DNA from: Gossypium raimondii
Taxonomy: Eukaryota > Streptophyta > Magnoliopsida > Malvales > Malvaceae
Length of the DNA stretch: 64,000 nucleotides
Assembly (NCBI RefSeq): GCF_025698545.1
Contig: NC_068576.1
Coordinates: 49,035,890 to 49,099,889 of the forward strand
Reading direction: 5' to 3'
In this document: piece after piece, positions 40,660 through 61,014 of the stretch
How the letters are laid out: every line of letters starts with the position of its first letter
Numbering within the stretch: the stretch's first letter is position 1
The notes under the pieces: generated by a model
What the model saw: the letters and a program-made list of their open reading frames with translations, nothing else
Databases searched by the model: none
What the model was told of the DNA's origin: nothing
Made by a program: the position numbers and the translations under genes

Positions 40660-43174
40660 TGTAACACCCCCAAACCCCCAAACCGTCGCCGGAACAGGTT
40701 TATGAGGCATTGCCGGACATATCACACAATTTACACATAATTTAAAAATAAACAACCAACATATTAAAGTAAATCATAATTCATATAAATTTTACTAATT
40801 GATTTCATTCATTCATTTTTTTTATTTTATAAAAAATTCGGCAGCATTTCGGCTTATTTTTACATTAAACCCCCTGCAAAATTTCAAATATAACCAACTC
40901 AATTCCAGTATTTCAACCAAGGCATTTATATATTCAAATATACCAAAATACCATTTATCAAAGTGCACCCAAAATGAACATAACACATAATGTTTCCATT
41001 CTAAACTAAACATTTCCAACTCAAGCCATATCACATAGCTTGATCAAACCCCAAAATTCATACCAAAAAATTAACTATACATGCCATATTTACATTAATT
41101 ACAAAAGGTCCAAAAGTACCAAAAATTGCTTGGATAGTGTGATAGCAAATCTCCGACCTAGTCCAAAATCGAGCTAGCTTCCGAAGTCTATAGAACATAA
41201 GAAAATAAATGAAGTAAGCATTAAGCTTAGTAAGCCGTATAATATAGAATTAAACTTGCCAATTTAACATTTAAGCATTTTAAACAATTAAATTCAACTC
41301 ATTTGTCCACATAGTCTATTAACACCACCATCCACGAGTTAGTCATATAGCTAAATATATCATGTCGTCCATATAATTCATATATTCATAAAACAAATAA
41401 TTCATGTAAATCATATAGCATTTATATCAATTCCATCCTAATCGTGTAACCTGTAATTCATCCAAATAATTATATAACTTTTTCATATGATCAGTAACAG
41501 TAATTATGCCCGTTGAACCTATTAGAACATCGAGGGATACACGGGTGATACACTATAATTGTATTTATCAGAAATTCGTCAATTCATTGTCATTTTCGCT
41601 CTTTCGAGCCATGATTGGTAAGCTCATTCCGAGCTGATAAACGGTAAGCTCTATCGAGCTGAAACGGTAAGCTCCGTAGAGCTGAAACGGTAAGCTCCGT
41701 AGAGCTGAAACGGTAAGCTCATACAAGCTGTGGTGAGTCCGCAACAAATGTAGGAGCTCGACCAAACGGTAACCCTAGTGACAAGTCACTCGATCCCAGC
41801 GATTTTCTAAAGTTCAAACGGGCTCAAGATTATCCAATTTCATCAATTAAGAAATGAAAAATCAATAGCTCAATTCCTCAATTCATATGCGTATTTATAT
41901 ATTTAATATAATTAAATACATACATTTAAATACTCAAAATTTAATATTCAATGCCTATTATTGTACCAAATCTATATAATGTATATAGTATTTGTAACAT
42001 TTCATTTGCATTCATGTAAACAGTAATATAATAGCATATCGGTAATTTAAAATTCAAGTGGATCATTCATTCAACTTACATACATTCATTTTTTTTTGAC
42101 AATTACAAATATTTAATAATTCAATTCTAGCTACACGAACTTACCTCGTATTTGCTCGAATACTTTCGTCTACCCGTCTAACTTTTGTTTCCCCCGATCA
42201 AGTTCCGGTATTTGTTTATCTTGATCTATATAAATTCAAATTTAACTCATTTATTCACCAAATCAATCAATTCAATCCATATAAATATATTTTGACATTT
42301 CTACAAATAGCCTTCATATTTTCGCATTTTGACACTTTAGTTCCTAATTCACAAATATACAAAATATACGAAATTTCTTTATACGAATTCTTAACCGAAT
42401 AATATATATCTTCTAGTCAGCCCATATTTTCATTTATTTCACATTTCTAACATAATATTTCTATTTTTTTTTATTAAATCCCTAAAGCTCATTTTTGTCA
42501 AAATTTATTTTATAAAACTTGTATATGTTTCAACACCCATCAATAATCTAGCATAATACTTCAAAATATACCAGTATTCAACAATGACACATTTCAAAAT
42601 CATCAAAATTTTCAGAAATTAAAGTACGGGCTAGCTAGAATACAAAACAACGATCTCAAAAACGTAAAAATCATCAAAAACCGAGCAAAGAACATACCTT
42701 AATCAACAACCAAAAGTGCCGAACCCTACTTTGCTCATAAGCTTTCTTTCCTTTGTTAATTCGGCAGTATAGAAGAATGGATCATTGATTTTTCATGTTT
42801 TGTTTTATTATAAAAAAAAACTTATTAACATAATGACCATATTAACCTTAATAGTTAAAAATTACAAAACACCTAATGGCTGTCTATTTTTGACCATGCA
42901 ATATTCTAATGATTAAATTACCACATAAGGACTCTATATAATAAAAGTCATAACAAATAGGTACCTTTACATATAACATTCAAATTTTGCATTTGACGCG
43001 ATTAAATCCTTTTAATTAAATTAAGTATTTAAACGGTAAAATTTTTTAATGAAATTTTTATACTATAATTCCATCATGCTGTAAAACTTATTAAAATAAT
43101 ATAATAAATATTTTTACTCGGTTAAGTGGTCCCGAAACCACTGTTCCGATTAGACTCAAAAACGAGTTATTACA
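40660..43174 (+). mobile_element. Solo-LTR-like element 1 (2515 bp), nested in the gypsy integrase region
   Basis: Starts TGTAACACCCCCAAACCC and ends GAGTTATTACA, flanked by AGTCC on both sides. Start (with a CCGTCGCCGGAACAGG motif) and end (GGTCCCGAAACCACTGTTCCGA) match the elements at 46719-53671 and 47349-50706. Inner landmarks shared with those are GCTTAGTAAG near 41225 and a CGATCTCAAAAACGTAAAAAT stretch near 42650. TG...CA ends and a 5-bp duplication mark it as LTR-derived. With no genes and no internal direct repeats, I read it as a solo LTR left by recombination; a non-autonomous retroelement is the alternative. Removing it with one AGTCC brings the pol frame back into register, so the gypsy element was there first. 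Confidence 0.82.
41617..41731. repeat. Hairpin array 1: five units with stem AGCTC/GAGCT
   Basis: Five units of about 22-26 bp share GGTAAGCTC N4-5 GAGCTGAAAC. Each can form a 5-bp stem with a 4-5 base loop (loops ATTCC, TATC, CGTA, CGTA); the fifth keeps AGCT...AGCT. It starts 957 bp from the TGTAAC end of element 1. Confidence 0.85.
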
Positions 43175-43179
43175 AGTCC
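43175..43179. repeat. Right 5-bp target-site duplication of the element nested in pol
   Basis: AGTCC, matching 40655-40659. Confidence 0.85.
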
Positions 43180-43656
43180 AATGCACATCGAGCTAATAAA
43201 GGGCAAAAGCAAGTCTTATTTGAACCTGGAGATTGGGTATGAGTGCATATGAGGAAAGAACGATTTCCTTCTAAGAAAAAGAATAAACTTGATGCACGAG
43301 GAGATGGACCATTCCAAGTACTCGAGAAAATAAATGACAATGCTTATCGCATTGATCTTCCTGGTGAGTATAGTGTTAGTGCTACTTTCAATGTTTCTGA
43401 TCTTTCTCCTTTTGAATTTGATTTAGGTTCAGATTCGAGGACGAATCTTCTTGAAGAGGGGGAGAATGATACGAGCCAAGGAGGTGACACTCAAGGGGTT
43501 GTTTTTCCTAGTGGTCCAATCACTCGAAACAAAGCACGACAATTAAAATCAAAGATGAATGCTTTTGTCCAAGACTTTGTTGCTACAAATTTAATTCATC
43601 ATGTTCGTGACATTGACAATACGGGAATACAATTCACTGGACCAATCTTGGAATAG
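43180..43656 (+). pseudogene. Integrase C-terminal part of the gypsy element, continuing into the 3' LTR
   Basis: Translation resumes in the same frame as the upstream integrase. It has an in-frame TGA around 43239, then MRKERFPSKKKNKL, GPFQVLEKINDNAYRIDLPG and SATFNVSDLSPF. These are the usual end of the gypsy integrase; no chromodomain follows. The frame runs across the polypurine tract into the 3' LTR (SGPITRNKARQLKSKMNAF) and ends at 43656. In the 5' LTR the same frame continues about 10 codons further, because the 3' copy lost one base near 43619. Confidence 0.82.
43453..43466 (+). other. Polypurine tract
   Basis: GAAGAGGGGGAGAA lies directly before the 3' LTR start TGATACG, the correct position for plus-strand priming. 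Confidence 0.85.
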
Positions 43657-44242
43657 TGAAAGCCCATAAATTGGTGGATTAATCTTTTATGTATCTTATT
43701 ATTATTATTTACTTAATTCTCATTGGTTGGGACACATCATTTATGAATTACATAATTTTATTGGTTAGGTTATTATTTATTTATTTTCTTAGATAATTTT
43801 AAAGAGTTTTATTAGGATTCAATTACTCTTTAAAGAGTTTTTATTCAATTACTCTTGTAATTTGCCTATAAATAGGCTTGTTTTCTACACATTGAAGGAT
43901 ATAAAAAAAGAGAGTATTTGTTTTCTTCCAAATTTGTGTGAGGCAAATTTTTGAGAGTAGAGTGATTCTTCTCTTGCTATATAGTTTGGAGTTTGTTACT
44001 TTCGAGGGTATTTCAGAGTTACAAATATTCAAATTTCTTTCCCGTTCATCGGTGTTTCTAGAGGTTCTTCTTCTAGGGGTTTCGTAGGGAGCCGCTCAAT
44101 TATTGGCGTTTTTGGTTGCAAGTTAACCAAGGGTTCCATAGGGCAAATCTATCCTTTTATTATTATTTAACTAATTTTATTTATTCTCGTTTTTATTTCT
44201 AATTTGTGTTTTTCTTGTGTTTAGATCCGGGATTCCGCATCA
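43467..44242 (+). repeat. 3' LTR of the gypsy element (776 bp)
   Basis: Begins TGATACGAGCCAAGG and ends GATTCCGCATCA. It is slightly shorter than the 5' LTR because of ATT repeat number and one missing base near 43619. Most differences from the 5' LTR are transitions. Confidence 0.92.
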
Positions 44243-44247
44243 GTATA
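44243..44247. repeat. Right 5-bp target-site duplication of the gypsy element
   Basis: GTATA, matching 34730-34734 exactly. Confidence 0.85.
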
Positions 44248-44547
44248 CCTCGATAGTTAGGAATTTATAATCCATCTTTCATTCTCATCATGAATGATCA
44301 CCCCAACATCTCTGTCTTGCGGAGCCATTAGAATTAAGTTTTGCCCACCCTCTTTTAGTGGCCTCTCTATGATCAGTGTGGGGATAGCAAATCTTGTAGT
44401 GTTGGCAGTGAGTGCATGAACAGATCCTGCTTGATGCAGCCCACGTTAGGGAGTGTGATCAAGCAATGCAATTTACCTTACCAAATGGGACATATTATTG
44501 TTGCCCCATTAATGTTAAAGTGGGTAGTGGAGTGTGATCATGCAACT

Positions 44548-44723
44548 AGACTAGTTAAATATGGGTTGACTTAATTTTCGGTCTGACATAATTCCCTCAA
44601 TTACAGCAATTAGCAATTATTGGGTTGTATGGGTTCTTCTAATTACAGTGTTGGACCTTTCCTTCAAATAACAATCTTCCTTTTTATCAGTCGCTATTGG
44701 GCTTGGTCAACCCCCACTTATGG
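44548..44723. repeat. Right copy of a diverged duplicated segment flanking the retrotransposon
   Basis: AGACTAGTTAAATATGGG, TTTTCGGTCTGA, GGGTTGTATGGG, ACCTTTCCTTCAAATAAC and AGTCGCTATTGGGCTTGG follow in the same order as the copy at 34180-34370. An open frame here (44620-44946) resembles no protein I know. Confidence 0.65.
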
Positions 44724-46718
44724 AATGAGTTTCAACTCTTACAAGCATAATCATAATCATAAACCGTCAAAATCTCTCAAAACCCCACACAGTGATTTAA
44801 AAATGGGTAAAACCCAACTTAAATCTGAGTTTTTTTACCAGAAAAGGCTTAATAAATCCTTGCTAACGAAAACTGGAATGATTAATAGCAGTGAAGAAAA
44901 GAGAGAGAATGAAACCCTAAAAATAAAACTTAGTTTTTCCATTTAAAATTGTTTTCTATTTCATGTTATACATTTCTTTAGAGTATATTGCATTGAAGGT
45001 TGAATATTAAAGTTTTTAAAATTATATATTTTAGTATTATTTTAATAAATATAATAATGATTAAGCAGAAAAATTCTGAAACAACCGACAGCCAATGATG
45101 ACCCAGTCAACCAATTTTCCAGTTTCCATATACAGTGTTAAAAGATAGAGTTACAGGACAGTCATCCGGACAAGGAAAAAAAGGTGACCTCCCTCTGCCA
45201 ATCCGCCACGTTTCCTTGGCTGGAACACTCAGGCACGTCACTGTACCGACCACGCTCGTCTCACACGTGCCAACTTTATTATTATAATTATCGATGATCA
45301 GTTTTTTACATGGGAGGAAAAGTAAAAAGGAGTTCGGAGAAAGTGAGAGGAAATAAAAGATAATATTTTTTATTTTTAAAATATCATTTTTATCCTTGAT
45401 TTATTTTAATGATTTTTTTATTATATCTTAGTTTTTTTAATCAAATTAATAAACTATCAAAATTATATTTTATATTTTTGAATTATTAGGACTCTTTACT
45501 TTTTAAGTTTGTAAAAATTAATTTATATTTTTTAACACTTGTAATTATTATTTTATGAAGAACATTAATTTTGTAATTTATAATTTAATTTAATTATTAT
45601 ATATTATTTAAATAAGTTTTAATTGAAAATTTTATTTAAACAAATTATTTACTTTACTTTTCACATCTTAACCAAATAAAATGTTAAAATTACTTTCCTT
45701 TCCTTTCTTTTATTAAATTTAGCTATTTAAACAATAAATAAATAATTGTGATAAAAAACAAAAATATTTCTTTATTTTTAATTATCTAAACATAGGACTA
45801 GTTTCCATTATAATAAAAAATTAAAATTTTAATAAAATGTTAGTAAATGAAATAATAAAAAGATTAAACTTTGAAAAATTAATAAACAAGTATTTACAAT
45901 TTTAAGTACAATTAAATTGACAATTAAAATATATCTAAATTAAAATAAATTTAGAGAAAACCCAAATATAATTTACACAAGGGAAGATTAAAACCTAAAA
46001 CTCTGAGATCCCAACACCTCAATTTTACTATTAAAGCAAAGATTGAAAATAAATTAATAAAATCAAACTTTGCATTTAATAGTTAAATCATTATGTTGAA
46101 TTTAAGTTTTTTATTCTCTTAAATAAATAAGTTTTTAAGCTAATAAAATTTAAATATTATTTTTAATCTAAAAATTTGGTATTTAAATTTAAATTTTAAT
46201 TTTAAACCTCAACCCTTCCTAATATTAATTTTATTAATGATATAAATTTCCAAAATCAACACAGTTCTATTGTTTTTCTTTTATGAACAATCCTAAGTTT
46301 TTAAATGGGATAACAATAAAGTTGTCATAATTTTAAAACTCGTCACGGGATTAAATTTAATCATTAAAATTTGGATTATACTTCTAATTACATTGTCATT
46401 TCAAATAATAAAAGATTTTTCTATTTAGATTTTGAGACGAAAGAACATCCTTATTTATATTAAGATCACAATTAAATATGTCAAAACTTTCGTGGGTTAT
46501 CAAAACTATAGATAGTCTAGAGTCCATAAATAATTGAAAAATTTTATGAAAAATTATGCTAATAAAAAGCGGTAACAAAAAGACAAAAAGTTATCATTAC
46601 ATTATAAGAAAGAAATCCATTTGCTTAGTTCTTTAGTTCTTAAGGAGCACAAAAAAAAAAGAATAAATGAGGAGGGGGCCGGTTGAGAAAATAAGAGTAA
46701 AGAAAATTTATAAGATAT
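44724..46718. other. AT-rich spacer, no gene seen
   Basis: Up to about 45300 the sequence is mixed; it includes a higher-GC patch with CACGTC/CACGTG-like motifs near 45200-45270. The rest is extremely AT-rich. No protein-like frame or RNA gene was recognised. Confidence 0.55.
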
Positions 46719-47343
46719 TGTAATACCCCTAACTCAAATCTGTTGCCGGAACAGGGTTACGGAGCATTACCGGAATTTACAAATTAAATACGGTAATTTC
46801 TCAACTTTTCAAATTTTTTTTAGAAGTAGGGGACACATGCCCGTGTCTCTGCTCGTGTAAATGGAAATAGGTCATTATTAAACAAAATACCTATACATGC
46901 CACTATATCCAAAATCCAATCATTCGAACATACCGATATAACCAATGGATAGTGTGATATATCTCTGACAAGTTTTCAACTCAATCAAGCTTCCGATAAT
47001 CTGTAAGATAAATAAAAACAAATACGTAAGCAATGAATGCTTAGTAGGATTTTAAATAATTCTAATACTCCATAATTTCTTTTGTCAAAAACAATATAAT
47101 CAATAAACACACTTCCTTCAAATCGATATCAATAATAATCGATAATTCTTTCAATTCAAACACATAAGTCTCTTACCATTTCTTACTGAATCAAAGAATG
47201 GCTTACAGATATGAGTATATCGTTCTTTTTGTGCCATAGTCCGACTATGGTCTTATCGACAATTTATCCTCACAAAATGATTGTACTCAATCCCGCGTTC
47301 AATCTAAACTGAGTATTAAATTCAATAATATATTTCCAATAAC

Positions 47344-47348
47344 AATTC
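47344..47348. repeat. Left 5-bp target-site duplication of element 2
   Basis: AATTC, matching 50707-50711. Confidence 0.85.
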
Positions 47349-48954
47349 TGTAACACCCCTAACCCGTATCCGTCGCCGAATTAGGGTTACGAGGCATTAC
47401 TGTACAAAACACAACTCAAAGCAGTCATAAAAAAAAACATTTGTATGCAATTCGTTTGGATATAGGTTTATATAAACTATTTCCAAATCAAAATATATGC
47501 ATTGTATATAAATAAATATATAAATTTAAATATATATACATAAAAGTAAGCATAATTAAAAATTCTACTTAACCATTTAAAACAAAACATAATATTTCAA
47601 TTCAACTAATCTATAAGAAAATAAGCCATATTCGTATGACTGTTAATTATATTTACAATACTTCAAAGTACAACTTTCAAAACATAATCTAGCCTATACA
47701 TGCCATAAGTTTAAGTTTAAACATTTCAATACCGAGACAGTAGATAGAGTGATGAACTTGCTGACGATCCCCGAGCTTGAAGCTTGATCTTTAAGTCTAT
47801 AAAACAGAAAGACATAAACAAACAAAGTAAGCTTTTATAGCTTAGTAAGTCTATAGCATATCAAAAATATAAAATTTATTATGAAATTTTTGGTACTCTT
47901 AACGAGATCGCAAATACCATATACGTTAACATTTACACGTAGTCAAATGCACACATAATTATTAAGACTTAAAACCGAATACATATACTCTATAAACATG
48001 AATCACCGAATGCATATATACATATGCTTAACAAATATTATAATCAAATATATACATGTATTTATCACATACATATATCCAAAGTCATATAGGTACTTAC
48101 GGTACATATAATCGAATATATACAAATTTATCAATCACATTTCATATTCCATTATACAAGTATGTATATCAATTATAAACTTTTAACCTAACTCATATTT
48201 ATGCATATAATAGAATGCATTCTTGTTCAACTTTTACTTATAAACAAATATATATATATTCATAATTGCGCATAAGAATACTCATCAATTTCTTATACCA
48301 AATGCACAGATATAAATATATATATACTTTTCAACTACACTTAACAGATATATAGATACATATACATATATATATCAACCACCAATGTCAGATATATGAA
48401 CAACTTCTTCAAACACATAAATCTGAACAATTCACACAATTTAAACAAATTCACCGGCACTTAGCCTGCTAGGCTTAAAACCTGTTTCAATACACCGGCA
48501 ATTAGCCTGCTAGACTTAAAGTCCGAAACATTTCACCGGCATCAAGCCTGCTAGACATAAAGTCTGAAATATTTTACTGGCATCAAACCTGCTAGACATA
48601 AAGTCTGAATTATTTCATTGGCAATAGATCTGATTGGTACTGAACTTTAACAAAAAAAATCTCAATTCCCAAAAATTGTATCTCATATTTGTATATAGAA
48701 TCCACATAAAATTCAGCTCAATAATTTATAAACTATATCTTTAAATAACATAGATGTATAAAGTTCAAACATCAATTCCAGCTCAATAATTTAATTATAC
48801 ATCCAAACACACATATATATATATATATATATATGCATTAACCTACTACTAATATCATATATTCAATCATCTTTTAATAATCCAACTAATAATTTCATAC
48901 TTTCAATGCTATTCAAAAACTTTACATGAATATACATACATAATTGAACCTCCC

Positions 48955-48987
<33 letters not shown>

Positions 48988-50706
48988 CATACATAATTCA
49001 TTACAAGAATATATACCGTATATTAGCATAACCGAACCTCATGTAACCTTGTATATTTGTCATACCTAAATTCACTATAAAATCATATACATGTATGTAT
49101 ACCGATCATTCGAATATAACATATATATATAATTACCAACTCACATATACAAATATAAGTTACATATCTTAATCAAATCTAAGAGTTTATACATATATAT
49201 ATTTATATACATATATTAGGACCTAATATACATATATATGTATATATCATATATTAAAACCAAGAATTTATACATATACAACATTCATACTTCCACTAAA
49301 TTCAAAAACTATATATATACACATAAGTATATATATTCGATCATTATGTATATAATTATAAATATATATACATATTCATACAGTTTATTCATGCTATTAC
49401 ATATATTTTGAATCTATCATATACATGTATAATTTCTTACCTAATTTCATTACAAGAGATTTTCATATATATACATGCCTATCCGAATCTCACCTTTACT
49501 TATATAAAATTTAAACCTATAATTTAACTCATGAACTTATACAAGATTATACTTGTATATTTGAAACTATCAAATACTTATATAAAATTTATACTTATAC
49601 TTCAAATTATAAACATTTAATTACAGCTCATAAAGTATACAATAGATATACAAGTATAAATATTGGTTTAATAACTTACCTCAGACAGTGAAAAATTGAA
49701 ATCGGACAATTAGTCAACGACTTTGGCTTTTCCCCGATTTAGCTCCGATTTCTTTGGTTCTTGATCTAAACATATTCAAAATGAGCTAGTTTAAATATTA
49801 TTATATTCAAATTAATCCAAAAACATGTAAATAGGTAAATTACCATTTTGCCCCTACCATTTACACTTTTTGCAATTTAGTCCATATTGCATAAAACACA
49901 AAATACACAAAATTTGTCTACAATATACAAGGGCCGAATATCCCTAGTGTTCATACAAGTCCACATAATTCATTTATTTCACATTTTGGTCCCTCAAAAA
50001 TTTAATTTCACAAATTAGCCCTAATTACTCAATTTCACCAAAAATTCAAAGACAAAACATGTTAATCTTTCACTTAACTTTCATATTTCATCATCAACTA
50101 TCACAAAGCTCAAGAATTCATCGATGGCATATCACAAAATTAACACCAATTCCAAAAATTAAAACATGGGTCTTGTAATACACAAAGCAACGATCTCAAA
50201 AACGTAAAAATTATCAAAAACCGAACAAAGAACTAACCTTAATTTGAGCTCATCAATGGCCGAATATAGCTAGGTTTTACTCTTTTTCTCCTTTTTCAAA
50301 TTCGGCAAGAAGATGCTGATGAATTTATTTTTCTTTTGTTTTAATTAACCTATATTAACATGTATTTTAATTTATTATTTTAACCTTATTTGAATAAATT
50401 ATAAAACACATAATACAAGGGCAATGGTCCGCTATCTAATTTATGGGCTAATTGCTTCTTAACTCCTCCCATTTAAAAAGACAACAACAATTGGGTGCTT
50501 TTAAATTTAACCCCTAAATTTTATTTTATGCGATTAGCCCTTTTTATCAAATTGAACCCTCGAAAAATTAAAATTTTATACAAAATTTTCACAAATAGTA
50601 ATTCACTCATTATAAATGCCAAAAACAATTTTAAAGTATTTTTCTAACTCGGATTTGTGGTCCCGAAACTACTTTGTCCGATTAGAGTCAAAATCAGGCT
50701 GTTACA
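47349..50706 (+). mobile_element. Solo-LTR-like element 2 (3358 bp), nested inside element 3
   Basis: Starts TGTAACACCCCTAACCCG with CCGTCGCCGAATTAGGGTTACG and ends ATCAGGCTGTTACA, flanked by exact AATTC repeats. It holds GCTTAGTAAG near 47840, (TA)n runs near 48812-48835 and 48957-48982, and the family stretch CGATCTCAAAAACGTAAAAAT near 50190. It inserted 630 bp into element 3 and is therefore younger. No coding capacity. Confidence 0.85.
48452..48622. repeat. Hairpin array 2: five units of 41 bp
   Basis: Units start CACCGGCA or diverged forms at 48452, 48493, 48534, 48575 and 48616, an exact 41-bp period. Each full unit has a short inverted repeat. Unit 1 has AGCCTGCTAGGCT and AGGCTTAAAACCT; unit 2 has GACTTAAAGTC; units 3 and 4 have AGACATAAAGTCT. 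Arms change together between units. It starts about 1.1 kb from the TGTAAC end of element 2. Confidence 0.85.
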
Positions 50707-50711
50707 AATTC
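50707..50711. repeat. Right 5-bp target-site duplication of element 2
   Basis: AATTC, matching 47344-47348. Confidence 0.85.
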
Positions 50712-51028
50712 AATTTAGCTTTCATTAGTTAATATCATATACTATCACATTGAGCCATTATTTATCTCATGAATATTTAGTTCATGTTTTCATTTCACAT
50801 TTTCATATTCAATTCACATTTTCAAATTATATTCCACAATCACGTTTCTTTCAATAGCTCAACTGTTTCATTTCATTCGATTTAACTTTTCATTTAATTA
50901 CCCTATTAACAGACTCGGGCTTTGGCGGATACGTGGATTCCAACCAAACACACCAGTATGGCACATTGTACCTTAACGGTACATAGTACCTAAACGATGT
51001 CGATGTGGTAGCGATATGATATGATAAT

Positions 51029-51218
51029 AGTATTCAACACACAAAGTGCCGAATCTGTAATAGTACGGTAACAGTATTCGACACACAAAGTGCCGAATTG
51101 GTAACAGTAACGGTAACCGTATTCGAAACACAAAGTGCCGAATCGATAACAGTAACAGTATTCGACACACAAAGTGCCGAATTAGTAACAGTAACAGTGG
51201 TCGGCATATAAATGCCTC
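51029..51218. repeat. Hairpin array 3: about five units with stem TTCGRCAC/GTGCCGAA
   Basis: The core TATTCGACACACAAAGTGCC, followed by GAAT, recurs with period about 40-45 bp, separated by GGTAACAGTAAC-like spacers. The last unit is a variant (GGTCGGCATATAAATGCCTC). Each core can fold as an 8-bp stem with one mismatch and an ACAAA loop. Corrected for the inner insertion, it starts about 0.95 kb from the TGTAAT end of element 3. Confidence 0.82.
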
Positions 51219-53671
51219 ATCAGTAAGCCGGCAAAAACCTGTACTCTTCCATGTCCTATGGTATACCAACTATATCTGACTAGCCCGACTAGTTAATAGG
51301 ATACTTAATTCACTTTTCAGTACAATTTCCATCTTAGTTCAGTATCAATTATAATTCCTTATTTCAATCAGTTTCACAGTATTGCAGTAATTCATTACTT
51401 CAATAATTTCACAGTTCAATGTAGTATACATAACAATATTCAATAACTTCACAATTCAACTCAGTACTCAAAACAATATTCAATATTCCATAATTCAGTT
51501 AAGTATCAGTCTCAATTTCAATACCCAATCACAAATTTATCATTTTAATAAACACTTACCTTAAAATACTTACCACACATAATTAGTAAATTAAACACAT
51601 AATAATGATAATGTTTGAATTTCAGTGATACAAACACATATTTCTTATTCAATTCAGTTCAATACTAACACATATACATATATATTATTCATCACCAAAT
51701 AACATTCACTTTAATCAAAATTGTGTAGAATATAGTTCATACGAACTTACCAGGTTAATTTGCAGAAATACCAAGATACAGGGGCATTTTAGAAATTTTC
51801 TATTTCCCTCGATTTTCTGCCCGATCTTGATCTAAATTAATATTTCATTTAATTTATTAACTTAAATATTAAAACAATTCATTTCATGCAATTTGGTCAT
51901 TTTTGACATTTTTACAAAATTACCCTAAAAATTTACTTTTATTCAATTTAGTCCCTGAACCTATAACATGTAAATTAGCTATTTCAAAAAAAAAAACTCA
52001 TATTAGTTGAATATTCACATATAATTTTCCTCCTCCTCCTCTCCATTCCACATCTTTAATGTGCATAACACATTTAAACAACATTATCCATATTATCACT
52101 ATTTTTCTGTATGTAAATTTAAGCTATCTGTCTGAGTCTGAGTCACTAATTTATTTATATATCGAGCTAAAGAGCTCCAAATTAAGATCTGTTAATTTTC
52201 CCTGAAACTAGACTCTCATATCTTCTTACCATAAAATTTTCAGAATTTTTGGTTCAGAAAATAAGTACAATTTATTCTTTAAAGTTTCCCTTGTTTCACT
52301 GTTCGACAGTTCCGACCTCTCTTCAGTAAAAAATAATTATTTCATTGTACAGAATTCGAATGATGTCCTCATTTATTTCTCTTGAAAATAGACTCATTAA
52401 GGATTTTAAACATATAAATTATAACCCACAATTATTTTTTTACAATTTTTAATGATTTTTCCAAGTCAAAACAGGGAATTCCAAAATCATTCTGACCCTG
52501 TCTCACCCAAATTCAAATATCTCATAATATAAAATTCTTTTGTATACACCGTTTCTTTTATGTGAAAAGATTCATTCAACTTTAATTTCATATATTATTT
52601 AGCTTCTAATTCAATTTCCACCATTTTTGGTGATTTTTCAAAGTCACACAACTATTGTTGTCTAAACTGTTTTGTTGCTGAATGTACTATTTCATAATTT
52701 TTCACTTTTTCTCACTTTTCTTTTTATCGATCAAGGTCAATTTCTCGTCTTTCTTGATTTATAACAACACTAACTTTTTTAACACTCATATTATTCAATT
52801 TAGTTCAAAAATCACTCTTTGAAAAAAATACATTTTTGCCCCTAAACTTTTCATTAATTCCTATTTCGTCTCTAGGCTTAAAAAATGAAATTCATGCAAT
52901 TCAATCCACTTTTCAAGCCTAAAAGAAATTCATATATATCTATAACAGTCCATAGATTTCACAAAAATCAAAATTTTCCTTTGAATTTCACAAGTTTACC
53001 ATTTAGTCCCTAAATCTCAATTTCATCCAAAATCACTTTGTAAAAGTTGTTTATTTACTAACAACCTTTCATTTTCTACCATAAATTTTCAATTTTCAGC
53101 ATGTTCATCCATGGCACAATTTCCATACCTTGATAACTTTTCAAATAAATTCTAAAAATAGAGAGAACATGTTATCTCGATCTCAAAAATATAAAAATTA
53201 TTAAAAACGAGGCATGATTACTTACCAATTTATGCCAAGAAAGTCTCTTTTCTCTCTCCTAGGGTTTCCATGTAAATTTTGGGGAAGAAGATGATAAAGA
53301 AAGATGATATGTTCATGTAATTAATTATCATATTTTAATTTCCCCAAATTCCATTTTAGTCCTTTTCTTTTCTTAAATTCCATGATGATTCATCCATAAA
53401 ATCTACCATATTTTGATTGATAGTCTATTTATCATATAAGGACCTCTAATTTTGAATTTCATAGCTATTTAATCCTTCTAGCTTCTAGAATTCAATTTCT
53501 ACATTTTATACTTAATTAATCACTAAATCGATAAAATTTTCATATCAGTATTTTCATGCAACCTTCCTATCATAATGCAACCCATGTCAAAATTTTAAAA
53601 TAAAATTTTCCTCGTCGGATTTGTGGTCCCGAAACCACTGTTCCAACTAAACTCAAAATCGGGCTGTTACA

Positions 53672-55084
53672 GGTATGATCTATTTGTATCTAACGTACCA
53701 ACTCCAAATATTTAAAAAAAAAAGCGTAAGCCTTTATTTCAAAATACTTTGATATATGAGATGAATTTATTATTTTGATTTCTTACTTGTTTTGTTATTG
53801 AATTAAGTTGAGCAGTTTTACATTTACAAACACACAAAAAACAATTTTTGTGGAAAAAACAATTTTTTTTATGTTATGACTCTTCCATATATGCCCGCTT
53901 TGGTTTGAATGGACATTTTGAAGAAATTTCAATTTAGTTCTGCAATAAAAAAAAAAAGGGGGGGGGGAATACTTGGATTGAGTTTTTTTCTTCCCAACGA
54001 GAAAGCTTATCACACATTGAAAATATAGGGGTTTAATAGAAATGGTTAAATAAGAATTGAATTAGATTTGATGGCTAAGTGTTCAAGGGTCCTCTCTAGA
54101 TATTCAAGTTTGAACTCCCTTCCTCTCATTTTATTTTCGACAACCTAGGGTAAAGTCACACTCAAAATATATATAGTCAATAGTTAAGACTAAACAAAAA
54201 ATGAGTCTTAAGCTTAATAGTTAAGTGTAAGTTTCCTTTCTTACAGGCCCTAGGTTTGAGCCACTTCTTTCCCTTTCATTTTCTTTTGAATTTTGACGGG
54301 TTTGGGTAAATTTAAAAGTGTCACCCCTAGGTTTTCAAACCCTAACTATTTAATCATTTTTTCCTCATTTTGATTAGGGTTGCCTCCTTTCAAATTCTAG
54401 TAAAATTTCACTTTATCTTCTATTTCTTTTCTTTTTTTTTTCATTTTCTTTACATCATATTTTCATCCTATTGCTGTTGATTATTTTGTTTTCCCGAATC
54501 AATCGTCCCATGTTCAATCGTTTCTATACCGATTTTGTAATTTCCATCAATAGCATCCGTATCATTGTCAAAAAAACAATAGACACACCTCGTTTCGATG
54601 ATTAGATCTTGTATTTCTATAATATTACTATCCGATGTTAATCTTTCGTTTGATTAATCAATATTTTACTGTTCTTGACAAATCCTTGATAATCTTGTTG
54701 AAATCTTGACACCAATTATTAATTTGAAATTATTCAAAATATTATTTTTATTAAATTTGTTCTTAAAATTATTCAAAATTAAAACTAAATAGTAAAATTC
54801 AATAAAAAGAGAGTAAAAAGTGAAGTAATAATATTGAAATAAGACTTTAACTACACGATGAAAAGAAAAGAAAAGAAAAGAAAAGAAAAGATTATATATT
54901 GTGGATTTCATTTTAACAAAATAAAATAGATATCAAATCTAAAGCTTAAATTTATTTATTTTAATCTGATGGTTAAAATCATTTTGATTTTTATATTTTA
55001 AATATAAAAAATTTTCACAATAAATAAAATCGAAATGGTAGGCTGCGTTTTCCTACTAAAGAAAAGTTACCTTAATTTTGTTCG
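53672..55084. other. Spacer and distal promoter of the RGP gene
   Basis: No gene seen. A homopolymer pair lies near 53947-53967 (A run then G run) and a pentanucleotide repeat at 54861-54890. The last 100 bases lead into the RGP promoter. Confidence 0.5.
54861..54890. repeat. Microsatellite (AAAAG)6
   Basis: Six perfect copies of AAAAG in a row. Confidence 0.95.
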
Positions 55085-55090
55085 CACGTG
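55085..55090 (+). promoter_or_regulatory. G-box upstream of the RGP gene
   Basis: CACGTG palindrome about 30 bp before the TATA box and 130 bp before the start codon, a typical site for plant bZIP and bHLH factors. Confidence 0.5.
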
Positions 55091-55113
55091 CCACCCGTTG
55101 TAAATCCTTCTCT

Positions 55114-55120
55114 TATAAAA
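55114..55120 (+). promoter_or_regulatory. TATA box of the RGP gene
   Basis: TATAAAA, 96 bp upstream of the ATG at 55216, with a CT-rich leader following. Good fit to a plant core promoter. Confidence 0.6.
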
Positions 55121-55215
55121 ACACGGTTCCCCTCTTTCATTCCCCTATCTCAAGCAGTCAAACTCACCCCTCCCTTCCTCTCTGCTTTTACTTTGCTAAG
55201 TCCAAGCTTTCGACA

Positions 55216-57184
55216 ATGGCCGAACCCTCTACCATTTCACCAGCTCCCCTCTTGAAAGATGAGCTCGACATAGTCATTCCAACCATTCGGAACTTGGACT
55301 TTTTGGAGATGTGGAGGCCCTTTTTCCAGCCTTACCATCTCATCATTGTTCAAGATGGCGATCCTTCCAAAACCATCAAGGTTCCGGAGGGCTTCGACTA
55401 TGAGCTTTACAATAGGAACGATATCAACAGGATTTTGGGTCCTAAGTCTTCTTGTATCTCTTTCAAGGATTCTGCTTGTCGCTGCTTTGGTTACATGGTT
55501 TCCAAGAAGAAGTACATTTATACCATTGATGATGACTGCTTTGTGAGCTAAAATACTTATCTCTTTCCTCCTTTTCAATTTTGGGTTTCGGGTTATAGAA
55601 TTAAAAAAAATAAAACACAAGTATCTGGTACTTTTGGAGATCTGGGTTTCAGTCAATTCTTGGAATTGGAATTTGGGTTCTTTTGTTTTTACTGTTTTGC
55701 ATGTGGGTTTTATGTTTTGGCTCTTGATGTGATCTTTTAGTCTTCTGGGCATGCAAGTTTAGATCTTGATGTGATTTGGGAATTTTGAATTTTGTTTAGT
55801 ATTAAAGTTCAAAAGTTCTTTTTTAATACAATTTAGTGGTATTTCCCCATCTTGATTTGCTATTTGGATCTGCAATTTTTTCTCTGCTTCCCGGCTTTAG
55901 ATGTAACATGTGTTTATCTGTGTTTCCTGGTATATTTTCTATAGTTATCTGCTTTTACTTGTTAGGCTTTCGAGATAGTCATCCTACATTTACTCATTAA
56001 CTAATGTTGAGCCGTTGTTCATTCAATGGTGATGTAAATCTTAGTAGCCTTTCTTAACAATTTCTTAGTCTTTTGCTGTTTTGTCATGTTTGTCTGTAAA
56101 TTTTGAAATGTAGGTCGATTTTCAATGAGATCTGACCATGAAGTGTTGTGCTTTTCTGGTATTCTATACTCCATCTTGCGATGTATGTAAATCTGAAGTT
56201 CGAGGCTGCTTGTGTTACAGGTTGCGAAAGATCCATCCGGCAAAGACATTAACGCACTGGAGCAGCACATAAAGAACCTTCTTTGTCCATCTACTCCGTT
56301 TTTCTTCAACACTCTCTATGACCCGTACCGAGCTGGTGCAGATTTCGTTCGTGGGTACCCATTCAGTCTCCGCGAAGGTGTTCCCACTGCCGTTTCTCAT
56401 GGCCTCTGGCTCAACATCCCGGATTATGATGCACCAACTCAGCTTGTCAAGCCTCTTGAGAGAAACACCAGGTGTGTGTATATATATAAACTTCACATTT
56501 TGTCTGACGTGTGTACTCGTACAAATGAAGACTAAATCCAATGTCTAATTTCTACCAGGTACGTTGATGCTATTATGACAATACCGAAGGGAACCCTCTT
56601 TCCCATGTGTGGTATGAATCTGGCATTCAACCGTGAATTGATCGGCCCTGCTATGTACTTTGGACTCATGGGTGATGGTCAGCCTATTGGTCGATACGAT
56701 GATATGTGGGCTGGCTGGTGTACCAAGGTATCTCATCATTCTTGCCATCACCTACTGATTTGTTGCTGTTACACTTGTCTGTAGCTTCATGTAAGTTTCC
56801 TCTTACACTGCAACTGCTAATAGCCTGTCGGTTCACATTCAGGTCATATGTGATCACCTCGGACTGGGAGTGAAGACAGGATTGCCTTACATTTGGCACA
56901 GCAAAGCGAGCAACCCGTTTGTGAATCTTAGGAAAGAATACAAAGGAATTTACTGGCAAGAAGAGTTGATCCCGTTCTTCCAGTCTGTTACCCTTCCTAA
57001 GGACTGCACCTCGGTTCAGAAATGCTACATCGAAATCTCCAAGCAGGTCAAGGCAAAACTAGGCAAGGTAGATGACTACTTCAACAAGCTGGCTGATGCT
57101 ATGGTGACCTGGATCGAAGCATGGGATGAGCTGAATCCATCTGGTGCAAAATCCGCCGAGCTGTCCAATGGTGCTTCGAAGTAG
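55216..57184 (+). CDS. UDP-arabinopyranose mutase / reversibly glycosylated polypeptide (RGP)
   Basis: Four exons, 55216-55542, 56221-56471, 56559-56727 and 56843-57184, with GT-AG junctions and consistent phases. They give 362 residues, the normal length. The start MAEPS is the first in-frame ATG. The [11 protein letters not shown] opening, the DDD nucleotide-sugar motif in YTIDDDC (residues about 105-107) and the [34 protein letters not shown] and YDDMWAGWC segments are hallmarks of GT75 family proteins. The enzyme converts UDP-arabinopyranose to UDP-arabinofuranose at the cytosolic face of the Golgi, feeding arabinan, arabinoxylan and glycoprotein synthesis, and it is reversibly self-glycosylated on an arginine. 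It is closest in style to RGP1/2/3, not the divergent RGP4/5. Nearby COBRA genes match the Arabidopsis COBL1-RGP1 and COBL4-RGP2 arrangement. Confidence 0.95.
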
Positions 57185-58194
57185 GCTTGTTCAGTAAGCA
57201 GCTAACATATTGTTTAGCAGCCCCAGGCTTGTTTGGGGATCACCGACACTTGCCAAAGCTCCATTGCTTGGAGTGCTTATTTTGCAGGTTGGAGGAGGAT
57301 GGGCACATTGTTATTTTATCATATTATTACCGAGTTTAGAACAATAAAAAATGGATGGCTTTATGGCTTCTTATGTATTTGGCACTAGAAATTGATGGCT
57401 TATATCTTAAATTATTTTTATTTATACAATGATTGGGATTGTTTCTTTTTGAAAAGTTGTTGTTATTGATTTCGATTTCTAATTTGTGGAATATCAACGA
57501 TTCGGATTTTAAGATATTTATTGTATGATTTCTAAAACATGATATACGCATAGTTACCAAAGTACGTGGATGTTTCCGCCAAATACTCATACAAACGGTC
57601 TTTGTGCCGGCAGATAGATCTTGGATCTGTGACAAAGCTGTAATTTTATTGTCGGTATTGGGCAGTGGAGTCCCATGTGATGTGATCCCAAATCCAATAA
57701 TCCGACCTTGTTTCCTTGTATTAGAGCAATGCATGGACATTGACATTCCAGCGAAGCATCATTAGGTTTCCACGAAAAGGAAAATAACATCAGACAAAAC
57801 TGTCATCTTCTTGTTCTTGGGAACATCCAGCTCATTTTGGGATTTTGGTTTGGTCCCACCCTCTCCCTCCTAACTTCATTATTTATCTCTTATTTAATTT
57901 TTCATTTTTTTGGTATATCGTATTTGGATGATCTGTTTATATTATAGGCTTCGTATATAATCATTGAGAATCCAAAGTTTAGCTGCCTCAATGTGTTCTA
58001 AAAGAGAATCAAAAACTGATTTTTTCCTTTTTTTTTTATTATGTTAAGAATATTAATTTAATAATAAAATGTTAGTCATGGTTAAACCAAAAGCCCGTAA
58101 ATGCGGTTAATGATTACATAAAAAAGACCTCCAAAATTCAATTTCACCGACAAAATCTCTACTGGAATGGGGCCACGCCCATAAGGATTTCGGT
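57185..58194. other. RGP 3' flank, no gene seen
   Basis: The first 200 or so bases are probable 3' untranslated sequence, with AATAAA-like signals near 57340. Minus-strand frames at 57336-57790 resemble nothing known. Confidence 0.5.
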
Positions 58195-58199
58195 AAAAA
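58195..58199 (-). terminator. RNA polymerase III terminator of the tRNA gene
   Basis: Five A on the + strand, hence TTTTT on the coding strand, nine bases beyond the tRNA 3' end. Confidence 0.75.
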
Positions 58200-58207
58200 G
58201 ACTATAA

Positions 58208-58279
58208 CGCCGTTGCCGGGGATCGAACCCGGGTCACCCGCGTGACAGGCGGGAATACTCACCACTATACTACAACGAC
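58208..58279 (-). tRNA. tRNA-Asp (anticodon GUC)
   Basis: A 72-nt cloverleaf reads on the minus strand. The acceptor stem GTCGTTG pairs with CAACGGC (one T-G pair), with discriminator G. A D-arm follows with AGTGGT. The anticodon stem CCCGC/GCGGG holds GTC at 58244-58246. The T-arm CCGGG TTCGATC CCCGG carries the box B motif. No intron, and CCA is not encoded, as expected for a nuclear gene. The sequence matches the common plant nuclear tRNA-Asp. Confidence 0.96.
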
Positions 58280-58631
58280 CTTGTACATTATGTCGGTTGT
58301 TTTACATTTTCTACGATCTGTTGTTTGTTGCACTTTCCTTCTCATAGATTGTTGACCACTTCTGTACGTATTGCTATCATCTTTTATTTTTGGGTAAGTT
58401 AACACTTCATTCACTTGACCTCATTTATAGCTATATTCTAATAATTTCCTTACCATGGAAAAATATATTGAACCAAAATCCTTTTTTCTTTATTCAATTT
58501 TATAGCTTAATTTTCTTTGAAATGATTTAAATCCAAAACCTTAATGGAAAAGTTCTCTGATCTCCATTCACCATCATTGGATGGTTGCTTGACTCCGATA
58601 TGTTCATATTCTTAGCAAGACTTTTTCCTTG
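58280..58631. other. Short spacer between the tRNA gene and element 4
   Basis: AT-rich, no frame or repeat recognised; it includes the upstream flank of the tRNA gene. Confidence 0.5.
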
Positions 58632-58636
58632 ACCTT
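58632..58636. repeat. Left 5-bp target-site duplication of element 4
   Basis: ACCTT, matching 61015-61019. Confidence 0.85.
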
Positions 58637-61014
58637 TGTAATATCCGCGTTTTAACTCGGGGTTAGGTACAGTGATGGATTGGATTAAAAATTAGTATAA
58701 AATTTTTGAAATATAATAAATAAGATTTTTGAGTATTAAATTAGGAAGTATATAGATCCAATAAGAAATTAGAAAAAAAAAAGAGACTCTTTAGATAGGA
58801 AATTTTAAAATAGACACCATTGATTTAGTTGGAAGAATAAAAAATTGTTGTGACCAAAGTAGGAAAAATATTAAGTTAGGAGATATATAATTGTAGAGGA
58901 AAGGAATGAATGATTAAAAGAAATTTAACCAAAGTGTTGTATGAGTCATACTAGGAAATATGAAAGATGAGGAACGACAAAGTGGTAATTAACCAAGTAG
59001 ATATTTATTAGGTGTAATGATATGGGTAAAAGGAAAAAGATGGATGGCTTAAGGACTTAGTAGCAATTTGACCATTTTAATTAAAAAGGTAAGATATTTT
59101 AGTGGAATGGTGTAGAAAGTGGGAGAAAAGATGAAAATACATATAATCTTTTCACAAGCCAAACGTCACCTCTTTCCCCCAAGTTTTATCCAACTTTTCT
59201 TTTAATTCCCTTCATGTCCTTCCACCATTATTCAACCATCCAAGTTTCAAACTTTCATTTTTCTTTGAAATTTCCTTAGTTAAAGTAAGAAATGATGAAA
59301 TTATCATACCATACATGTTTATTTTTATTAAATAGTATAGGAAAGTCACTTGATTGTGGTTTTTTAACATATAAATGTTATATGTTTTATATGAAATTGA
59401 AGAGAAAGAAAAGAAAGGAGATGACCTAATTGAAGAAAAGGGAAAGAGAAGGTTAAGGAGTGAAGGAAGAAGAAAATACATTATCTCAACCTTTTGTTGT
59501 AAGTACTACAAGATTTTTAAATTATTTTTATTTAAATGCTTATATTGTAGTATGAAATTACTTAGAATAGAAATGTAAAATATATATTTGAATTTGTAAA
59601 TAGATAAAAAAGATTAGATTATGAAATTATGAAATTTGTAAAGAAAATTATTGGTGGAGAATATGAAATGGTATATTGTTTGAACACTAAGTAATGATGT
59701 TGTGGTAAAAAGGATATGTATGAAAAATGTGTGATATTTGTGAGATGTGAAATGGGGACTAAATTGTAGATGATGGAGAAATGAGAAATCTTTTTTGAAA
59801 TATTTATGTAAAGTATTTAAATGTATGAAATTCAGCTTTAATGCCCAAGTAGACGGAATTTAAAACTACTAAGATATTAGTGGCATGCCATTAAGGGACC
59901 TTAGCGCGGTCTCCGATTATTAGCACATTAGTGCTCTCTGTTTAGCACATTTGTGCTCTATGTATAGCACTTTAGTGCTCTCTATTCAATAGTGCATAAT
60001 AATGCACCTCTGTATTTGTTCCGTATATCCGGTGTGTTCTATAAAGTCTACTTTGGGCTAAGAATATGAGTTGTGAACAAAAGTGAATCACCAATGTGTT
60101 GAGGTAAGTTTGATAACTTACAAAAGGTATAAGTTAAATTTTATTAAAGTAAGGTATAGTTGAAGAAACTTGTATGTGTGTAAATATGTATTAATTGAGT
60201 AAGTTTAAAATATTTTGTTATGATTCATTTACCTATTTATTCTTGTAGTGCTTACTAAGCCTTCACTGGCTTAACGCGTTTATTTTTAACGCGTAAGAAC
60301 AGTTAGACTGGAAGAGGTAGAGTTGGGTTAGGAGATCTCTCATCTCATCACATCCTCAAGAGCTTCAAGAGTAGGTATCATATTTTGAATTAAAATGGCA
60401 TGTACGTAGGTAGACCAAATGTGGTCTCATGTGTTAGGGACTAAAATACAAACTCTTGAAACTCTATCTATTTTGGTTTTACTTGAAGTATTTTAATTCT
60501 ATATGAAATGAATTATTGAAACTATAAGTATGTTTGCAAATGTGGTTTGCTAATATGATGATTATGATTGATTTGGAGTAGTTTTAAGTAATTTTAATAT
60601 ATTTTGAATTGGTCTTAAGTGTTGAGAAGAATATATTTATATATATTGTAGGGGTTTTAGTGAACTTTTAAACTGATTTTTACCAAATTTTACCCAAGGG
60701 TATAGGTATCGATACCTAGGTTACGAAATACAAAATTTCCAAAATAGAATGTGATTTTGGTATTGTTTTTGTCATTGGTATCGATATTTTTTTCCCCTGT
60801 TTTGAGTAGAAACAATGTTAAAATCATTTCCAAACATAATCTAGCATCCAATAATGACCCCACACGTTTATATTAATAATTTTTGAGTTAAATAAGTTAC
60901 AATACTATGTATAAATGCTTAAATTAAATAGTGTCTAGCCAAAACTATTTTGGCACCAAATATAATAGTCTTATACCGGGTTTGTACGTTCGGACCGGGT
61001 ATAAGGGTGTTACA
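58637..61014 (-). mobile_element. Solo-LTR-like element 4 (2378 bp), reverse orientation
   Basis: Read on the minus strand it starts TGTAACACCCTTATACCCGG at 61014 and ends at 58637 (...CCCGAGTTAAAACGCGGATATTACA). Exact ACCTT repeats flank it. The landmark GCTTACTAAG near 60248 is the reverse complement of GCTTAGTAAG in elements 1 and 2. Ends, size class and 5-bp duplication match the other three, but the body has diverged, so it is a related subfamily. No genes inside. Confidence 0.8.
59920..60011. repeat. Hairpin array 4: four units with stem AGCAC/GTGCT
   Basis: Three units of about 21-22 bp have AGCAC N4 GTGCT (loops ATTA, ATTT, TTTA) followed by CTCT(G/A) or CTATG. A fourth variant is GTGCATAATAATGCAC. 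The array lies about 1.0 kb from the TGTAACACCC end of element 4 (at 61014). Confidence 0.85.

Follow-up and report, generated by a model that had tools for sequence, protein, structure and literature searches.

Long terminal repeat (LTR) retrotransposons of plants are generally intronless, and Ogre and EVADE are named as exceptions in the available portion of PMC12786077. BARE1 is spliced within gag, and according to the available portion of PMC3735527, its unspliced RNA is used for replication while its spliced RNA is argued not to be copied. How plant LTR retrotransposons separate the RNAs for translation from those for replication is an open question. Here, we analyze hairpin-forming tandem arrays in four LTR-like elements, E1 to E4, all with TGTAA..TTACA ends, that lie in a window of 64,000 nucleotides from Gossypium raimondii (C12:49035890-49099889), together with related LTRs found by searching the genome (750.8 Mb in 281 contigs). 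In the E1 family, the array sits inside a genuine intron that can be spliced out of the transcribed leader, downstream of another intron that also lies within the LTR.

The presence of spliced and unspliced RNAs is a likeness to Ogre, EVADE, BARE1, CRR, and Bagy2 as these are described in the accessible parts of PMC3735527 and PMC12786077. The introns of BARE1, Ogre, CRR, and EVADE lie in or between coding regions according to the same excerpts, whereas the two introns described here fall within the LTR. The excerpts of PMC12786077 and PMC3735527 make no mention of LTR-internal introns, and neither such introns nor such arrays in plants were found in the titles and abstract openings of the open-licence literature searched. 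Because they are LTR-internal, the introns are doubled in each element and lost from both LTRs when a spliced RNA is copied.

In foamy viruses, the splice donor of the LTR joins acceptors outside the LTR; psi and the constitutive transport element (CTE) are structured domains that act on unspliced retroviral RNA, and the tandem repeats of Tnt1 change between Tnt1 subfamilies. The likeness to the foamy virus LTR, whose major splice donor precedes the poly(A) signal, consists of a donor within the LTR with RNA structure close by (PMC3694450, available portion); the difference is that the present LTRs contain the acceptor as well as the donor and that a tandem array separates the two. By analogy with the RNA transport element (RTE) of the intracisternal A-particle (IAP) and the MusD transport element (MTE), which are described in the available portion of PMC12786077, the array may fold into a domain through which unspliced RNA is acted upon. 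It differs from retroviral packaging and transport elements in that its sequence varies between subfamilies. Tandem repeats in the LTR are also found in the U3 of Tnt1 and retroviruses (PMC3601003, excerpt). In contrast to these, the E1-family array lies in a transcribed intron downstream of exons 1 and 2, a position that rules out a Tnt1-type U3 enhancer for this family.

Introns inside the LTR

The elements belong to an abundant Ty3/gypsy LTR retrotransposon family, as seen in the pol order, the polypurine tract, the primer site, and the 5-bp duplications. The LTR 5' end pattern has 109 + 106 exact matches in the genome, compared to 0 for the reversed control. A full-length E1 relative, L012, has the polypurine tract AAAGAGGGGAGAGT immediately 5' of TGTAACAGCC and, past the LTR end ...GGTGTTACA, a degenerate primer site TGGTTTTAGAGC with 2 mismatches to the primer motif (no site was found in L012 at 1 mismatch). 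Its stop-free pieces match, on the same strand and in order, RVP_2, RVT_1, Integrase_H2C2, and SH3_Tf2-1, and two of the six pieces had no domain match. The lineage may be that of the Tekay/Del chromoviruses; SH3_Tf2-1 is present, and no chromodomain match was found in the six L012 pieces scanned. It follows from the L012 layout that the LTR starts with TGTAACAGCC and that TGTAACACCC marks the LTR 3' end read as its reverse complement, and the tract, the primer site, and the pol strand place the sense strand of E1, E2, and E3 on the minus strand. The sense strand of E4 is provisionally taken as plus, based on the element ends and on a resemblance, judged by eye, of its array units to those of a related LTR, L021.

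Many LTRs carry, in sense order, a donor of the AAG^GTATGT kind near position 470 (the caret marks the splice point), an acceptor (TATAG^ATCAAGA) near 945, a purine-rich exon of about 80 to 90 nt, and a donor (CGAG^GTAAGTT) near 1030. Further 3' lies a block reading CTTACTAAGC...TTTTATAG, with CACACTATC about 60 nt after it, which corresponds to a branch-point/acceptor block. Two introns per LTR are predicted from these motifs. The motifs were counted in 12 LTRs that were picked from 100 listed places by 5' end only, with arrays disregarded, so that each represents a different one of 12 end variants. Donor 1 and acceptor 1 were each at the expected place in 8 of 12 LTRs (means in 100 shuffles, 1.20 and 0.80), donor 2 (AGGTAAGT at 990 to 1100) in 7 of 12 (mean, 0.04), and the intron-2 acceptor block in 5 of 12 (mean, 0.03). 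Among 20 unselected 10-kb stretches starting at round coordinates, 7 contained the acceptor block together with CACACTATC. A column profile of motif sites across LTRs was not used, as it was partly circular (its sites were chosen by motif) and gave a false E1 acceptor.

Precise loss of these introns is seen in genomic copies of the E1 family. In E1, on the minus strand, intron 1 is 42226..42697 (sense 478-949), the purine-rich exon 2 of 81 nt is 42145..42225, and intron 2, which reads CGAG^GTAAGTT ... CTTACTAAGC ... CTATAG^A and holds the array, is 41188..42144 (sense 1031-1987). A search for the joined E1-family site gave 1 genome match, at C7:33111716, with 3 mismatches. The LTR at this place (L045) reads exon 1, exon 2, and exon 3, with both introns gone at the predicted bases. 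Upstream of it (L046) lie an internal region, the polypurine tract, TGTAACAGCC, and U3; L045 is therefore a 3' LTR, its element having been copied the LTR way, and a pseudogene made by a long interspersed nuclear element (LINE) is ruled out. A search with the intron-1 junction gave 33 matches (reversed control, 4). Six were counted as junctions by their exon-1 ending, two each on C7, C8, and C11, and the rest look like unspliced acceptors or chance matches. The second C7 match (L047) is 5.8 kb upstream of L045 on the same strand, also lacks both introns with exon 2 retained between them, and is interpreted as that element's 5' LTR; the two LTR pieces are alike at 220 of 240 bases, as derived from the alignment score. 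On C11, where the two junction matches are 6.8 kb apart and each has an E1-type array 0.45 kb downstream, one copy (L048) lacks exactly intron 1, with the same ends, and retains donor 2.

These copies show that both introns of the E1 family are real, run from GT to AG, and are precisely removed; other families are known by motif only. Exons 1 and 2 of E1 are transcribed, because they are joined in genome copies. An E1-family copy without intron 1 can retain the array-bearing intron 2, and on at least one occasion a spliced, array-free RNA was copied. The segment C7:33105780-33111859, which comprises L047, L046, and L045, is an old element with both LTRs intronless, a retrocopy of a fully spliced RNA. 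The C8 junctions, of E1 type for intron 1 and known from the junction matches alone, are at 44516103 and 44533944, 17.8 kb apart on one strand.

Any reverse transcription of spliced RNA would leave intronless LTRs in the genome. In another family, the L034 type, a genome search allowing up to 3 mismatches found 522 donor sites, 233 acceptor sites, and 0 joined exon sites; 31 donor-acceptor pairs, hand-picked among the 100 rows listed each for donors and acceptors, are 1125 to 1409 apart. The 233 acceptors versus 0 joined sites suggest that unspliced RNA is the usual template. Spliced and half-spliced retrocopies are a readable, countable record in the genome. LTR introns also mean that many LTRs (522 donors of one type alone) bring ready exons, donors, and acceptors, which could splice into genes. 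For tapeworms, the available portion of PMC4558846 reports host genes to which donors of solo LTRs have been joined.

Arrays downstream of the second donor

The original prediction described four related LTR-type elements in the window, each with an array of short inverted repeats, and both parts were recovered: element ends, duplications, and array extents were detected again (arrays at 41617-41730 in E1, 48450-48626 in E2, 51025-51198 in E3, and 59920-59983 in E4). It also expected arrays in most family members, which agrees with the 10 of 12 sampled LTRs that have an array with a Tandem Repeats Finder (TRF) score of at least 90, between sense positions 1044 and 2713. No array of that score was found in L042 or L044, nor any beyond those of the ten in the 12 LTRs. 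The segment L044:1235-1560 (sense) is a complex, hairpin-rich domain with larger repeated units instead of a short-unit array.

The fixed distance of about 1 kb to the TGTAACACCC end did not hold. Distances of 0.95 to 1.10 kb are peculiar to the four elements of the window, and in the nine sampled LTRs in which donor and end could both be mapped (all but L035, L041, and L042) the array is 1224 to 1812 nt (1.22 to 1.81 kb) from that type of end. A steadier anchor is the splice donor that precedes the array in sense direction: the array is 143 to 489 nt past it in the nine LTRs, 414 nt in E1, 532 nt in E3, and 1056 nt in E2. The two LTR introns in which this setting consists had not been seen in the prediction. 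The arrays are real and belong to a larger whole, an LTR leader that has two introns and a core that turns over and is structured in part.

Roles considered for the array domain

We favor a reading, with a probability of about 0.4, in which the second of two LTR-internal spliceosomal introns contains a structured domain, with the arrays as its variable core, that marks the unspliced genomic RNA. In sense direction, the LTR would consist of U3 and promoter, exon 1, intron 1, the short purine-rich exon 2, and the splice donor, followed by the array, often with an enclosing stem, the branch point, the acceptor, and exon 3, which extends as far as the LTR end and primer site. Other families would be spliced like the E1 family, with unspliced RNA as the usual template for new copies and spliced RNA probably serving as messenger. 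Only RNA that retains intron 2 carries the hairpin domain, which would mark this RNA for the replication route by shielding it from splicing or by promoting its packaging, dimerisation, or nuclear export. The form of the array would be selected while its sequence turns over via gain and loss of tandem units. RNA is a plausible level of action because the array sits in a spliced intron of the transcript. We consider it doubtful that the domain is further a subfamily-specific packaging or export tag, removed by splicing, read mainly by shape, and fast-changing, so that subfamilies can escape parasites or host silencing that read the old version; if true, LTR introns would give the element an inbuilt means of switching its RNA between messenger and genome.

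The structure tests compare related LTRs and related repeat units, so the counts are not independent; array borders were set by hand, and the tests are uncorrected for descent. The number of bases paired in short hairpins was reached by 1, 5, 14, and 3 of 200 dinucleotide shuffles for E1, E2, E3, and E4, respectively. The array holds the lowest-energy 120-nt window of the sense strand of each element (for E3, of its larger piece). In sense, 9, 2, 1, and 0 of 100 shuffles folded as well as the arrays of E1, E2, E3, and E4, and in antisense 1, 6, 5, and 0. Single repeat units were weak in E1, E2, and E3 (as-good shuffles for E1 to E4, 20, 99, 71, and 2 of 200 in the same order).

Paired changes were found in a module called M2, which was located via its flanks and not by pairing (23 units, 9 loci, 15 distinct) and retains at least one likely chance row (L025). 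Its 75 cells comprise 56 Watson-Crick, 5 G.U, 5 A.C, and 9 other, so that 61 are paired compared to a mean of 50.4, and 0 of 5000 re-dealings of the 3' arms did as well. The stems include ACGTC/GACGT, CTGTC/GACAG, ATGTC/GACAT, ATATC/GATAT, and ATAGT/ACTAT. Module M1 was weak in this test (247 of 5000 as good; looser set, 37 of 2000), and module M3 was dropped as its matching was so loose that most of its 66 matches were background.

Stems enclosing the array were sought by local alignment of the array flanks against 500 shuffles, with a threshold of at most 12 of 500; duplex energy of the 170-nt flanks (11 of 20000 permutations as good) had been too noisy for single stems. A stem was found in 9 of 18 arrays (E1, E3, L018, L033, L034, L035, L040, L041, and L044), and only 4 of 100000 flank permutations paired as well as the arrays with their own flanks. 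In six further E1-family copies (L003 to L008), the AGCTC/GAGCT arms are mostly retained, the loops are altered, and the unit number varies; L001, identical with the copy in the window, and L002, which yielded no units, are outside this set.

Several results weigh against an RNA mark. Only 5 of 20 arrays were above shuffles in hairpin content at 5%, and 15 were not. In folding relative to shuffles, array windows were no better than the remaining LTR, with a mean z of -0.37 (65 windows) versus -0.22 (409 windows; p 0.12), and the antisense comparison gave p 0.18. The ratio of G.U to A.C in stems was 31:13 (70:30) versus 63:37 in shuffles, which is no clear sense-strand excess, and M2 has 5 of each; this asymmetry, hinted by single units and unsupported by the full count, was rejected as proof of RNA-level selection. 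Half of the arrays (9 of 18) had no significant enclosing stem, including E2 (173 of 500 shuffles as good) and E4 (129 of 500). The array of E2, at 1056 nt from its donor, is beyond the range of the nine LTRs. Furthermore, the C7 element is a case of array-free RNA being copied at least once, and the E1-family retrocopy counts come without a denominator of unspliced donors.

Neutral turnover is the foremost rival, although we judge it unlikely. It holds that the intron is unconstrained and that functionless tandem and inverted duplications arise there when reverse transcription slips or switches template. It would fit array windows that are generally no more stable than shuffles, the 15 arrays without hairpin enrichment, a unit number that differs among E1 copies, and the array-free copy made at least once; a poorly spliced intron with a drifting array is not far behind the hairpin domain. 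However, no TRF array of score 90 or more occurs in the first 1000 nt, the intron 1 region, of the 12 LTRs. The M2 covariation (0/5000) and the own-flank pairing (4/100000) would be unexpected under drift, though both tests are uncorrected for descent. The place of the array 143 to 489 nt past the donor in nine LTRs also weighs against drift, with E2 (1056 nt) outside that range.

We rank just after it, and also hold to be unlikely, a DNA-level regulatory module: a downstream intronic enhancer whose palindromes and inverted repeats bind dimeric transcription factors, are repeated for strength, and are replaced as hosts or tissues change. Transcription-active tandem repeats are known in LTRs (PMC3601003, available portion), and a palindrome search placed TGAC/GTCA or TGTC/GACA palindromes before the array in 11 of 12 rows, the twelfth (L027) being chance-like. 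The mostly retained AGCTC/GAGCT arms with varying loops in the E1 family would also suit protein-binding sites, as would stems that are strand-neutral (31 G.U to 13 A.C; shuffles, 63:37). In contrast, M2 stems alter on both sides yet stay paired, the enclosing stem bridges over 100 nt with a sequence that differs among E1, E3, and L041, and no half-site common to E1 to E4 was noticed by eye, no motif search having been made.

That the LTR donor and the adjacent structure control polyadenylation, silencing the poly(A) site of the 5' LTR and freeing that of the 3' LTR in the way reported for foamy viruses, is quite improbable: an LTR-internal donor with RNA structure nearby is as in foamy viruses (PMC3694450, excerpt), but the array is 143 to 489 nt away from the donor in nine LTRs. 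The enclosing stems of E1, E3, and L041, which occupy similar LTR positions but differ in sequence, speak against a captured miniature inverted-repeat transposable element (MITE) or foldback transposon.

The original prediction of a shared design with changing sequence, under selection for foldback, is thus borne out in part. M2 covariation, family-specific enclosing stems, and the mostly retained E1 arms agree with it, and its positional anchor was wrong. The excess of inverted repeats over shuffled sequence that it called for is present in E1, E2, and E4 of the window at 5% and absent from 15 of 20 arrays overall, and the stem covariation that it proposed to test is present in M2 (0/5000) and weak in M1 (247/5000).

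Further features of the window

E1 (40660..43174, minus strand) is a solo-LTR-like element of 2515 bp with an exact 5-bp duplication, agtcc. Its array (41617..41731, minus) consists of AGCTC/GAGCT units forming 5 hairpins and is flanked by the 5' strand (GCCCGTTTGAACTTTAGAA..., 41793..41823) and the 3' strand (...TTCTAATAGGTTCAACGGGC, 41508..41538) of the enclosing stem, for which 1 of 500 shuffles was as good. The near-palindrome GTGACTTGTCAC (41778..41789, minus) precedes the array and is akin to the pre-array palindromes of other LTRs, a list that came from a palindrome search. By eye, E1 splits a pol-like reading frame of another retroelement (43175-43660), which resumes past E1.

E3 (46719..53671, minus) is solo-LTR-like, is split by the nested E2, and has an imperfect duplication (gatat/ggtat, 4 of 5 alike). 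Its predicted intron 2 (47001..51750, minus; donor CCTG^GTAAGTT at 51750, acceptor CTTACAG ending at 47001) would hold both the array and E2. The array (51029..51218, minus) reads TTCGGCAC..GTGTCGAA in sense and is enclosed by stem strands at 51282..51308 (5') and 50894..50921 (3'), both minus, with 0 of 500 shuffles as good. An extra hairpin of the M2 kind, CCATAGT-CGG-ACTATGG, was located via its flanks at 47234..47250 (minus). E2 itself (47349..50706, minus) is solo-LTR-like, 3358 bp long, with an exact duplication, aattc; its array is at 48452..48622 (minus), and its intron 2 is predicted at 47797..49679 (minus) from donor and acceptor motifs only.

E4 (58637..61014, plus) is a divergent solo-LTR-like element, recognized by its ends and an exact duplication, acctt, in which exon 2 was not placeable. 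Its array of AGCAC/GTGCT units (59920..60011, plus) resembles units in L021 by eye. A candidate enclosing stem pairs GCCCAAGTAGAC (59843..59854, plus) with GTCTACTTTGGGC (60046..60058, plus); it is present in the minimum-energy fold and not significant alone (129/500).

Ahead of the array, L010, L011, L015, L017, L018, L026, L030, L033, L037, L043, and L044 have a conserved block ending in GGATAC followed by a palindrome of the ATGTCATGACAT or GTGACATGTCAC kind, with TGAC and TGTC swapped on both arms. A like block without such a palindrome is found in L021, L035, L039, and L040, and L018 contains a tetraloop-like GTAGC-TTCG-GCTAC.

A search of 40660-61014 against Rfam at the gathering score gave no array match; the sole match was a tRNA gene (RF00005) at 58208-58279 on the minus strand, 0.36 kb from E4. 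Also beside E4, a host gene read by eye at 55216-57184 presumably encodes a reversibly glycosylated polypeptide (UDP-arabinopyranose mutase).

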